From positions 1-22,919 of the IMG/VR virus record IMGVR_UViG_3300025671_000567: a stretch of DNA of 22,919 nt. One strand, written 5' to 3'. The notes under the pieces are model-generated. The model was not told where the DNA came from. It searched no databases and was given only the letters and a program-made list of their open reading frames with translations. Origin of the DNA: a virus. Below are positions 20,247 to 22,902 of this stretch, one piece after another (the stretch's first letter is position 1; the number at the start of each line of letters is the position of its first letter). Position numbers and translations under genes: made by a program.

Positions 20247-20717
20247 TTATAATGAGAAATCTTCTCCTACGTTATGATCCTCTATATGCTGTTTTATTTC
20301 CTGATAAGCAGCTTGTATTTCAGCTTCATTATCATGTTTTAATAAAACATCTTTTGCATCAGGATGCATGCTGTAGAATGTCTTTCTATAAATAGTCTGT
20401 CCTTCTAATGTACAAACTATACCAGAAGCACCTGCTACTTTGATATCATAGTCAGGTGATTTAGGATTAAAAGGTATTAAAGATTCTTTAGCAATAATCT
20501 GCCCAGACACTTCTTGATTAGCTTTCCAACCAAACCCTTTTAAGTCTTGTACCTTACCAGGAATTAATGCTGTACGTTTTTTACGTCTAGCAAAACCTCC
20601 CTCATCAACTTCCATAACATACTGTTCAATCTGAATATGTCCATACTCAGGATTCTTCTTACTTTGAATGATTACTTGTCCTTCATCATTACAACAAACT
20701 TTAACTTTACTGTCCAT
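20247..20717 (-). CDS. Hypothetical protein, 156 aa
   Basis: I use the ATG at 20717, three bases behind the shared 14-nt A/T leader; the frame stays open to 20780 but that part contains a strong terminator hairpin. The product is beta-rich: MDSKVKVCCNDEGQVIIQSK, then PGKVQDLKGFGWKANQEVSG, LIPFNPKSPDYDIKVAGASG and TIYRKTFYSMHPDAKDVLL, ending DHNVGEDFSL. The 'KGFGWkANQEVsGkI..kESl.PF' block looks strongly conserved and familiar from Bacteroidota phages, but I know no function. Terminators on both sides imply separately tuned expression. Confidence 0.7.
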   Translation of the reverse strand: MDSKVKVCCNDEGQVIIQSKKNPEYGHIQIEQYVMEVDEGGFARRKKRTALIPGKVQDLKGFGWKANQEVSGQIIAKESLIPFNPKSPDYDIKVAGASGIVCTLEGQTIYRKTFYSMHPDAKDVLLKHDNEAEIQAAYQEIKQHIEDHNVGEDFSL

Positions 20718-20750
20718 AACTTTAAATTTTAAATTAAACATATAAAAAAA

Positions 20751-20771
20751 GGCTACTGTAAAACAGTAACC
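20751..20771 (-). terminator. Intrinsic terminator in leader of the 20247-20717 gene
   Basis: On the minus strand GGTTACTGT, TTT loop, ACAGTAGCC (8 of 9 paired), followed by TTTTTTTA. One of the strongest terminator shapes in the window. It stands 34 bp upstream of a start codon and has an upstream sequence (20794-20803) able to pair with its 3' arm, so it may act as an attenuator. Confidence 0.75.
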
Positions 20772-20868
20772 CATAACCACATAGAGAATGACCTTTTACA
20801 GTACAATCCTCAATATTATTTTAACAAAGATTCTTTTATTTGAAAGAAGAGTGAATATTTCCGGTTGA

Positions 20869-21202: not shown

Positions 21203-21619
21203 TTATAAGCTTTCATAAAATCCTTGCACACAACTTTCATTTACACTAGTTTTCAGTACAACTCTTTTGCCTTGATCATCTAATGCTGTAAAAGTAACAC
21301 CATACTGTTTGAATGCATATTTATTTGTACTAGTGATCTTACAAATAACATAACCTTTAGAGGCATATTCTGATTCTTCAGTTTTCTCTCTATCAAATTT
21401 CCAACTATCCAAATCATATGCTCTAACTAGAATTTCATTATTAATTTTATATTCTAGTTTAGGTATAATACCAAGTGATCTTTTAAATAATGTAGACAAT
21501 GCATGCTCATTATCCTCCAAGGCACCTAGTAACACTTCAACAATATCATCTTGATACTCTTCTTTAAATAACGACTTCAACCTCTGAGCCATTTCATTAT
21601 TTGATATCTCTATTTTCAT
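21203..21619 (-). CDS. Hypothetical protein, 138 aa
   Basis: Begins MKIEISNNEMAQRLKSLFKE; an N-terminal helical part (DDIVEVLLGALEDNEHALST) is followed by a beta-rich half (YKINNEILVRAYDLDSWKFD, GYVICKITSTNKYAFKQYGV) that could be an SH3- or OB-like barrel. No family recognised. A strong terminator (21679-21705) isolates it from genes to the right, so it needs its own promoter; copy 1 of the 26-bp motif (21645-21670) lies in the right place. Confidence 0.7.
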   Translation of the reverse strand: MKIEISNNEMAQRLKSLFKEEYQDDIVEVLLGALEDNEHALSTLFKRSLGIIPKLEYKINNEILVRAYDLDSWKFDREKTEESEYASKGYVICKITSTNKYAFKQYGVTFTALDDQGKRVVLKTSVNESCVQGFYESL

Positions 21620-21644
21620 AACATTTGTTTTCTCTTATTAATAG

Positions 21645-21670
21645 TTAATTGATTTTCCTTATACGAAGTA
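21645..21670 (-). repeat. 26-bp motif, copy 1 (possible phage promoter)
   Basis: Plus-strand TTAATTGATTTTCCTTATAC followed by GAAGTA. It matches copy 3 at 19 of 26 positions. It lies between a terminator and the start at 21619, where a promoter is required. Confidence 0.5.
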
Positions 21671-21678
21671 CATAAAAA

Positions 21679-21705
21679 AAATAGGGTTAAATTATAACCC
21701 TATTT
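21679..21705 (-). terminator. Strong intrinsic terminator
   Basis: Stem AAATAGGGTTA/TAACCCTATTT (11 bp) with a 5-nt loop, followed on the minus strand by an unbroken run of T (plus-strand A-run 21674-21681). It ends transcription of the small genes at 21729-22042. Confidence 0.85.
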
Positions 21706-21728: not shown

Positions 21729-21899
21729 TTACTTTATACCTTTTCCTACTAATTCAATATGTATAGCAAAACACAATACACTGATGTACATATCAATGTC
21801 ACGTTTTACTGTAGATGTAAAACCAAACAACACACCAAGATGAAAGCCAAAACTTACAACAGTGTTCTTTCTTCTATATAATATCCACTCCTTAGTCAT
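21729..21899 (-). CDS. Small hypothetical protein, 56 aa
   Basis: The ATG at 21899 overlaps the stop of the upstream 47-aa gene by one base (TAATG). Product MTKEWILYRRKNTVVSFGFH continues LGVLFGFTSTVKRDIDMYIS and VLCFAIHIELVGKGIK; two moderately hydrophobic stretches (VVSFGFHLGVLFGF and MYISVLCFAIHIELV) may be membrane-associated. It is followed by the strong terminator. No family recognised. Confidence 0.6.
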   Translation of the reverse strand: MTKEWILYRRKNTVVSFGFHLGVLFGFTSTVKRDIDMYISVLCFAIHIELVGKGIK

Positions 21900-22042
21900 T
21901 ACTTAATAGTTTTTTTCTTATAAGAAGCTTTCATCTTTTTCAATAACTCTTTCTCCTTATCTGTTTTAATAAATGTTTTCTTATCAACGTTAACCTTGTT
22001 ATCATTGATCTCCTGTGCTAATTTTTCTGTACTGTTTGACAT
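21899..22042 (-). CDS. Small basic hypothetical protein, 47 aa
   Basis: ATG at 22042 behind an A/T leader ending AAAACAAAATAAAAATG. Product MSNSTEKLAQEINDNKVNVD continues KKTFIKTDKEKELLKKMKAS and YKKKTIK: lysine-rich, helical, probably nucleic-acid-binding or disordered. Coupled to the 56-aa gene by TAATG. No family recognised. The 26-bp motif (copy 2) lies 12 bp upstream. Confidence 0.6.
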   Translation of the reverse strand: MSNSTEKLAQEINDNKVNVDKKTFIKTDKEKELLKKMKASYKKKTIK

Positions 22043-22054
22043 TTTTATTTTGTT

Positions 22055-22080
22055 TTAATTAATGTTCTATGTATTAAGTA
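22055..22080 (-). repeat. 26-bp motif, copy 2
   Basis: Plus-strand TTAATTAATGTTCTATGTAT followed by TAAGTA; 21 of 26 positions match copy 3. It is 12 bp upstream of the ATG at 22042. Confidence 0.5.
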
Positions 22081-22108
22081 GCATTATATTCCTCTAAGTA
22101 TTACAACG

Positions 22109-22134
22109 CTAATTGATTTTCTATGTGTAAAGTA
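22109..22134 (-). repeat. 26-bp motif, copy 3
   Basis: Plus-strand CTAATTGATTTTCTATGTGT followed by AAAGTA. It lies 54 bp from copy 2 in the same non-coding stretch. Confidence 0.5.
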
Positions 22135-22138
22135 ATAT

Positions 22139-22161
22139 GGAAGAGCATGTACAACTCTTCC
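22139..22161. other. Hairpin GGAAGAG/CTCTTCC
   Basis: Perfect 7-bp stem with a 9-nt loop in the gene-free stretch 22043-22301. There is no T-run on either side, so it is not a standard terminator; it may be part of the same structured RNA as 22220-22297. Confidence 0.5.
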
Positions 22162-22219
22162 GTATCACCATTGATTTTTAATAACAAGAAACTATATATC
22201 TTATATGCATGTTATTAGA

Positions 22220-22297
22220 ACTCTTGCAAGGTTGCAATCCTTGAAGTGCATGTTGACATATACGGTCTAACCCGATTTACCTGCATTGGACAAGAGT
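22220..22297. ncRNA. Candidate structured RNA (three-way junction)
   Basis: A closing stem ACTCTTG/CAAGAGT (22220-22226 with 22291-22297) encloses two stacked hairpins: CAAGG, 7-nt loop, CCTTG (22227-22243), which abuts the closing stem without a gap, and AGTGCA/TGCATT (22245-22250 with 22282-22287) with a 31-nt loop. No reading frame of useful length crosses it. The 7-bp plus 5-bp/7-nt arrangement on the minus strand copies the acceptor and T-arm of a tRNA, but D- and anticodon arms are not formed. The strand is not determined; minus is likelier from context. Confidence 0.45.
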
Positions 22298-22301
22298 AAG
22301 T

Positions 22302-22421
22302 TTAGTTATCACTAACTTCTTCTGTACACTGTTGACAAATATGAAATTCATCACATGTGCAAGTTAATGAAGGATCTATACTATACAAATCCATCATATC
22401 TTGTGCGTCTTCAAAAAACAT
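22302..22421 (-). CDS. Small cysteine-rich protein, 39 aa or longer
   Basis: From the ATG at 22421: MFFEDAQDMMDLYSIDPSLT then CTCDEFHICQQC and TEEVSDN. CxC ... CxxC looks like a small zinc site. The same frame remains open upstream to 22523 and would add a hydrophobic segment (VAIISAVLLLSLYSV) plus GESDILPDVLKFKL, giving a membrane-anchored protein, but that part has no ATG, GTG or TTG start. Either the short form is real or the longer one uses an unusual start such as ATT. Confidence 0.5.
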   Translation of the reverse strand: MFFEDAQDMMDLYSIDPSLTCTCDEFHICQQCTEEVSDN

Positions 22422-22557
22422 AAGCTTAAATTTTAGTACATCAGGCAGTATATCACTTTCTCCTACGCTATAAAGAGAGAGTAATAATACTGCTGATATA
22501 ATTGCAACTTGTAAATCAAAAAATTATATACACTATGAAAATACACTAGGTAGTTGC

Positions 22558-22902
22558 TTAACCTAGCAATTTCTTTATTATGAATAGTATACCAAAGGCA
22601 ACTATAAATTTCAATATTAGAATGATCTTAGATATAATGATCATTATAATTGATTCAGTAAGCTTTTCAGACTTGATCAAACCGGTAGTGTTATTTATGT
22701 CCTCCTGGCAGTATCTCTTGTACTCAAGCAAAGCAATTCTCAACGCACTCAAAGTAATATATATAGTAAAGAAACTATATAAGGAATGTATGTAAGGAAT
22801 AAGCTTAATAATACCCATAGTAACAGGTATGAGTAATAAGAGGTCTATAATGTACTCAAAGACCCATACTATGATTTTATGTAGTGTTTTATCTATCTTC
22901 AT
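22558..22902 (-). CDS. Small integral membrane protein, 114 aa
   Basis: Three likely membrane helices: about 10-33 (IIVWVFEYIIDLLLLIPVTM), 36-60 (PYIHSLYSFFTIYITLSALR) and 84-108 (SIIMIIISKIILILKFIVAF), with a charged loop (EYKRYCQEDINNTTGLIKSE) between the last two and a basic end. ATG at 22902, stop at 22558. No family recognised; a host-membrane or superinfection-exclusion role is possible for an early phage membrane protein but not shown. A plus-strand frame over the same DNA is its shadow. Confidence 0.6.
   Translation of the reverse strand: MKIDKTLHKIIVWVFEYIIDLLLLIPVTMGIIKLIPYIHSLYSFFTIYITLSALRIALLEYKRYCQEDINNTTGLIKSEKLTESIIMIIISKIILILKFIVAFGILFIIKKLLG

Follow-up and report, generated by a model that had tools for sequence, protein, structure and literature searches.

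What does a virus keep in a stretch of DNA that encodes no protein? The sequence examined here, the full IMG/VR record IMGVR_UViG_3300025671_000567 (22,919 nt, GC 29%; hereafter the window), holds nearly all of its genes on the minus strand, and its positions 22043-22301 contain no usable reading frame, as the original prediction had said: the longest open reading frame (ORF) there reaches at most 31 aa. That prediction, made from the letters alone, also saw within this gap a three-way junction with the outline of a transfer RNA (tRNA) acceptor and T-arm, for which it offered three identities: a tRNA mimic, a phage small RNA or a structured leader. Comparison with related viruses indicates that the junction almost certainly belongs to a conserved small-RNA family that is absent from Rfam 15, and that this family very probably consists of a constant frame carrying an exchangeable arm.

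Both elements of the claimed geometry are present on the minus strand, where ACTCTTG (22297-22291) pairs with CAAGAGT (22226-22220) and a 5-bp hairpin, CAAGG-ATTGCAA-CCTTG (22243-22227), adjoins this closing stem. The further claim that one long hairpin replaces the D and anticodon arms holds in part; the arm does contain a CGG/CCG hairpin, but the junction begins with an invariant D-loop-like motif. The closing stem forms 7 pairs in the window, its outermost U-U being unpaired in this copy. The parts of the element are as follows.

22219-22298, minus strand: the whole RNA element, 80 nt, a member of the scaffold family according to covariance model R1
22291-22298, minus strand: closing (acceptor-like) stem, 5' strand, UACUCUUG; compensatory changes in 6 of 8 pairs
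22280-22290, minus strand: conserved D-loop-like motif, UCCAAUGCAGG, near-invariant in alignments A3 and A4
22244-22279, minus strand: variable, probably exchangeable arm, 36 nt, with a hairpin of CGG (22274-22272) and CCG (22265-22263); common to locus L172
22227-22243, minus strand: T-arm-like hairpin, CAAGG-AUUGCAA-CCUUG, stacked directly on the closing stem; compensatory changes in 3 of 5 pairs
22219-22226, minus strand: closing stem, 3' strand, CAAGAGUU, pairing with the 5' strand

About 140 viral loci were collected through relatives of two window proteins, the SF2 helicase and the protein at 20247-20780 (L plus a number labels a viral or other locus compared). BLASTN of the gap against these loci matched a 32-nt block in several of them, consisting of the T-arm-like hairpin and the 3' closing strand, and inspection showed that the 5' strand and UCCAA(n)GCAGG lie ahead of this block at a variable distance. 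A 22-nt IUPAC pattern, which constrained the 3' part of the frame only and whose scan is biased toward consensus copies, matches at least 119 IMG/VR contigs, where by our own estimate chance would give about one. Among bacterial and archaeal genomes totalling 257 Gb, the pattern occurs in one contig only (L279:3031-3052), a 4.1-kb contig from a metagenome-assembled genome labelled Sneathiella, which is probably misbinned phage DNA. The R1 model, built on 30 divergent copies whose two ends align without ambiguity, gives 113 matches in 100 loci; it scores the window element at 61.2 bits (E 2.7e-9 in 1.42 Mb, the window copy being one of the 30 seed sequences), and the nearest relative, in L172, is 78.7% identical over 89 nt. 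Rfam 15 has no gathering-score match in the window, and a lenient search (E ≤ 10) returned nothing at the element or, in six related loci, at the frame. We found no description of the motif in the open-access literature, although a published catalogue of candidate viral and phage structured RNAs may list it without interpretation.

Every copy presents the same frame: an 8-bp closing stem, the motif UCCAA(U0-3)GCAGG and, abutting the closing stem, a 5-bp hairpin whose loop reads RUUGCAA in 99 of 111 scanned copies. Across 93 distinct R1 matches, 99.2% of cells are paired. The compensatory changes by which the original prediction proposed to judge the closing and T-arm-like stems are there, with two-sided changes in 9 of 13 pairs (0 of 500 shuffles); 6 of the 8 closing-stem pairs are so compensated (0 of 500 shuffles), as are 3 of 5 in the T-arm-like hairpin. 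Covariation on the 93 matches exceeded that of all 500 shuffles and all slid controls, and in two further covariation runs two count measures were reached by at most 21 of 500 shuffles. The strands of the closing stem pair in all main variants (5'/3': TACTCTCA/TGAGAGTA, AACTCTCA/TGAGAGTT, TTCTCTTA/TAAGAGAA and TACTCTTG/CAAGAGTA), and because the 5' strand lay outside the search pattern, its pairing with the 3' strand tests the stem independently. Further compensations come from copies outside the pattern, namely UGUUCUUG/CAAGAACA in L227, CAGGG/CCCUG in L164 and UACUCCUA/UGGGAGUA in L198. The folding energy of the 88-nt junction is no better than that of shuffles (z -0.24 on the minus strand, -1.1 on the plus strand), as would be expected of a chance fold in a non-coding gap; however, conservation and covariation in many relatives, as analysed on the 93 matches, refute such a fold and leave it a negligible probability. 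The junction is thus supported by the comparison of homologues and not by single-sequence folding energy, a caution for similar searches, since only comparison revealed this RNA.

On the sense strand, the copies hold 15 G-U pairs against 2 A-C pairs, an excess that argues for an RNA and not a DNA hairpin. In such an RNA, the D-like GCAG(G) would be complementary to the hairpin loop RUUGCAA, and the U residues added ahead of GCA in some copies would lengthen the helix. The GCA:UGC contact is near-invariant, and one copy (L187:2348-2462, minus strand) carries the compensated form GUA:UAC. A loop-loop contact between the D-like motif and the hairpin loop is therefore likely.

The arm is the part that changes, something that could not be seen from the window alone. 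Its length and sequence differ widely between copies, and the 101 copies with flanks, from the matches listed, fall into 51 arm sequence clusters that sit in 70 left and 65 right contexts. A single arm can have as many as 10 left and 9 right contexts, and as many as 7 arms can adjoin a single right flank. The flanks of L144 and L176 are 100% and 99% identical around different arms, and flanks of 92-100% identity again hold different arms in L174/L202/L273, L125/L257 and L179/L206. Conversely, L172 carries the window's arm at another site, and between the two copies the closing stem is doubly compensated. Arms were not seen outside the frame, except in one degraded frame. They are structures in their own right, since two arm families of 8 copies each keep their own helices with two-sided changes; such changes are weaker in further families. 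One cargo loop, UUAUGAU, also occurs in a tRNA-like gene of L005, but we rejected it as a sign of exchange with a true tRNA, its frequency being within that of control 7-mers.

Whole cassettes also come and go. L221 is a near-exact empty site, showing the L222 site without the element, and TTATT, present once in the empty site, flanks the insert of L222 on either side. Among cultured phages, a 762-nt segment of the Flavobacterium phage FpV21 that ends just behind the element is absent from FpV4. These comparisons suggest that phages trade small RNA modules with one another. The same exchange, the TTATT-flanked insert, the FpV21 segment and the inverted terminal 8-mers would also fit a mobile cassette or recombination site acting as DNA, similar to attC or to a miniature inverted-repeat transposable element, conserved because its inverted-repeat ends, or the single strand once folded, are read by a recombinase or transposase. 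We consider this quite unlikely. The tolerance of G-U pairs is specific to one strand (15 versus 2), orientation to the genes is constant, the arms have conserved pairing of their own, each genome has one or two copies, and cellular genomes lack the element apart from the single match in 257 Gb. Nor was a linked recombinase identified or an integrase found among the window genes tested, although the contigs were not searched systematically for either. Integron gene cassettes (attC) are likewise units exchanged at sites with conserved folded ends, but the cargo here is an RNA structure instead of an ORF, and selection appears to act on the sense strand at the RNA level.

How far does the resemblance to tRNA extend? 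Of the proposed tRNA mimic, the outline stands: as in tRNA (RF00005), a 7-8-bp stem is joined directly to a 5-bp hairpin with a 7-nt loop, a U follows the stem, and a D-loop-like GCA is complementary to UGC in the hairpin loop. The remainder does not. The loop RUUGCAA lacks the T-loop consensus (UUCRA; UUCRANY), and the middle is a variable arm and not an anticodon arm of 5 bp with a 7-nt loop. On the 3' end the picture is mixed: C follows the closing stem in 90 of 101 copies, but most have no encoded CCA, which is present in 17, and the window has CTA. ARAGORN reports 0 genes in the window, its relaxed, intron, mitochondrial and transfer-messenger RNA (tmRNA) settings yield only the noise of relaxed cut-offs there, and the Rfam tRNA model has no match at gathering or at E ≤ 10. 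A degenerate tRNA gene or tRNA-derived remnant would account for the acceptor-T-arm-like geometry, and real tRNAs and a GOLLD-tRNA unit do occur in the same region of the window's relatives; nevertheless, the silence of both tRNA searches in the window, the missing T-loop and anticodon arm, and a strict frame consensus of the element's own over more than 90 distinct copies make this origin very improbable.

The setting of the element bears on whether it acts in cis. Its carriers form an uncultured crAss-like clade, and window proteins have relatives in 81 of the 120 pattern loci. All matches to p20247 (46), p20869 (36), p19676 (28), p19266 (27) and the helicase (23) are co-directional with the element; these five replication-module genes lie at median distances of 3.5-6.3 kb downstream, which places the element upstream of the replication module. 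Its neighbours are often other conserved non-coding cassettes. A cis-acting RNA of the early operon, whether a processing site, an attenuator, an antitermination site (for example, HK022 put) or a 3' element that stabilizes messenger RNA, would explain why the element is always co-directional with the operon, why 15 of 88 copies begin within 15 nt of the upstream ORF end, and why in FpV21 a T run directly follows the closing stem in the manner of a terminator. However, a run of at least five T follows only 4 of 101 copies, on which ground we rejected a terminator role, distances to flanking ORFs vary widely (quartiles of 72-324 nt to the next ORF start), one RNA precedes different genes or cassettes, and dozens of unrelated arms would be superfluous in a cis element. 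A cis-acting role is therefore unlikely, and so is the structured leader proposed earlier, given these varying distances and the other RNA cassettes or different genes that adjoin the element.

Sequence comparison establishes the paired frame, the structure within the arms, the fixed sense orientation to the operon and the exchange of cassettes. The best explanation of these features is a small RNA that acts in trans and has the arm as its specificity part, a reading to which we give a probability of roughly 55%; the compensatory changes in both stems strongly support the broader identification as a phage small RNA. The RNA would be small and structured, read from the same strand as the phage early and replication genes, and its frame (the closing stem, UCCAA(U)GCAGG and a T-arm-like hairpin contacting the D-like motif) would present the variable arm. 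The frame would most likely provide stability or processing, or a handle for one common binding partner, while the arm would confer specificity, most likely as a base-pairing partner of, or a decoy for, a factor of the host or of a rival phage. Gain, loss and exchange of cassettes would probably proceed through recombination, with the conserved ends of the frame and AT-rich spacers as its sites. Arm exchange suggests changing targets, as would be expected in host or phage conflict, and we tentatively propose, while thinking other targets the better bet, that a host defence or regulatory factor is involved. Short structured phage RNAs can be decoys of host factors, as with type III toxin-antitoxin RNA antitoxins and phage mimics. 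The element differs from type III toxin-antitoxin RNAs in having no tandem repeats, no toxin gene recognized alongside and a different fold.

Several observations weigh against a trans-acting RNA of this design. No target was found for the arm, and transcription of the element is itself inferred from sequence comparison; we likewise infer action in trans, the nature of the target and the route of recombination. Two copies misfit the loop-loop contact, whose support is one compensated copy together with invariance. The element is present in 10 of 32 long contigs (nine with a single copy, one with two) and absent from the other 22, so it is not essential. Moreover, the sequences come from metagenome assemblies, where chimeric joins at short repeats might give the appearance of some exchanges; L144 and L176 share a sample, whereas L174/L202 and L179/L206 are from different samples.

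What appears new is the design, a constant RNA frame with an exchangeable structured arm and cassette turnover, which we could match to no known kind and which would stand beside GOLLD and ROOL as structured phage RNA. GOLLD and ROOL are held together by kissing loops (PMC12286853). They resemble the element in being phage-encoded structured RNAs near tRNAs, with function not known, but they are several hundred nt long against 80 nt here, have their own folds and have no exchangeable arm in a constant frame. A GOLLD-like RNA does lie in the relative L005 (2390-2910; 45.7 bits, below the cut-off of 150, E 1.9e-10); after it comes a tRNA-like gene in which acceptor, T-arm and CCA are intact and the D and anticodon arms degenerate. 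The tmRNAs, including permuted tmRNA (RF04321), share a tRNA-like end without an anticodon arm, and the relative L004, a crAss-like phage contig, has a permuted tmRNA-like gene (1735-1995; RF04321 46.9 bits, cut-off 47, E 8.8e-8) whose tag frame ends in ...AHAMAA; the element, by contrast, is 80 nt long and shows no tag frame, and the window matches no tmRNA model. We rejected a remnant of GOLLD or tmRNA in this region, since the window matches neither of them, nor ROOL, in Rfam up to E 10.

Known phage RNAs are usually single conserved molecules, whereas this family keeps its frame and apparently swaps the working part, which recalls the variable domains of surface proteins and points to diversifying selection on RNA structure. 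If so, the family would represent a class of molecules new to phage-host interactions, in a phage group that is abundant, and would help to explain non-coding islands left blank by gene annotation. The proposal is testable, because a copy is carried by 18 cultured Flavobacterium phage records. In FpV21 this diverged copy (KT876726.1, 88126-88211, minus strand; R1 44.3 bits, E 6.3e-7) has a hairpin loop, UGCAA, that is 2 nt shorter and still complementary to UUGCA, and its closing stem has lost one pair on both sides. It surfaced by the covariance model; INPHARED searches with DNA of the window or its uncultured relatives gave no real match, and R1 gave none at E below 0.06 in phi14:2, crAss001, DAC15, cr116_1 or cr108_1. 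A 2.3-kb stretch of FpV21 (L297; KT876726.1, 83840-86170) has no annotated gene and few ORFs of 40-67 aa.

The genes of the window make up the replication module of a crAss-like phage: DnaB, a primase, Sak4, a Dda-like helicase, a uracil-DNA glycosylase and SPL. The best matches of the uracil-DNA glycosylase are crAss-like phages, at up to about 40% identity, and the top match of the SF2 helicase is Cellulophaga phage phi14:2 (27%). By the closeness of its replication proteins to those of crAss-like phages, the window would fall in Crassvirales; a crass-type capsid, portal and terminase are not in its 22.9 kb, and its longer relatives were not searched for them. Genes that touch or overlap, the setting described originally, are only part of the picture, as gaps of 67-152 nt are common across 18-23 kb. 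The immediate surroundings of the element are as follows.

22302-22421, minus strand: upstream ORF, 39 aa, with a CxC...CxxC motif; 18 early-region relatives at 61-77% identity
22139-22161, minus strand: separate 8-bp hairpin downstream of the element, z -4.0 as RNA
21899-22042, minus strand: downstream gene, 47 aa; one relative, L078, at 44%

The first and last of these flank the gap, and the stop codon of the upstream ORF, for which no annotated relative was found, ends 3 nt ahead of the RNA element. The hairpin at 22139-22161, originally given 7 bp, is present and strong (z -5.7 on the plus strand), with no clear homologue among the loci compared. For the proteins at 22558-22902 and 20247-20780 a single-protein scan gave no close relatives, and alignments were required. 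No convincing homologue was found for 22422-22557. The entire 515-nt gap of 22043-22557 folds with z -4.5, but this span includes the small ORF. In the next gap upstream, 22440-22500 (minus strand) forms a very stable long hairpin (z -4.1), again with no convincing homologue. A terminator-like palindrome with a T-run (21705-21679, minus strand) lies ahead of the gene at 21203-21619, and a weak freshwater-2 RNA match overlaps the palindrome in the region 21622-21705 (minus strand; 22.6 bits, cut-off 49.9, E 0.62). A motif, TACTT...ACATAGAAAATCAATTA, is repeated upstream of starts at about 22131-22107, 22081-22057 and 21666-21642 (minus strand) and is a possible promoter or operator; its AAAATCAATTA part was computed and the remainder read by eye.

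The cassettes that neighbour the element include a second scaffold of the same design, UAAUGYACCA-[hairpin around UUCCCAAGG]-CAGUUGUAAUA-[variable arm]-UAUUACAACUG-AGURCAGAGGG. It is not in the window, and its 68 distinct copies, 65-236 nt long, occur in 61 loci (including L027:6565, L028:5711, L061:3833, L125:1828 and L205), 50 of which also carry the first scaffold. Its closing pair is C-G in 55 copies, U-A in 9 and U-G in 4, and the inner hairpin is compensated in several ways. The crAss-like clade may keep islands of small RNA cassettes in which two or more constant scaffolds, unrelated to each other, bear hypervariable exchangeable arms used against hosts or rival phages, a picture to which we give slightly less than even odds; if true, such islands would be an RNA counterpart of the integron cassette or of an antigen-variation system. 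One 1.6-kb stretch without ORFs of at least 45 aa (L257:1701-3312) has the first scaffold twice and the second once, alongside other hairpin units. Other non-coding units also recur in these islands, namely AGAAAGGCAGTGATATTCTGCGTAT, AAAGAATGCTCCAGCAATTA...GCATTCT and AAGGGATTTTAATGTAG...TTCCCTT (L165, L166, L262, L270, L217, L078, L184 and others), and L004 has, at 957-1031, a tRNA of 50 bits with an anticodon loop of 8 nt, CUUAAUAC.
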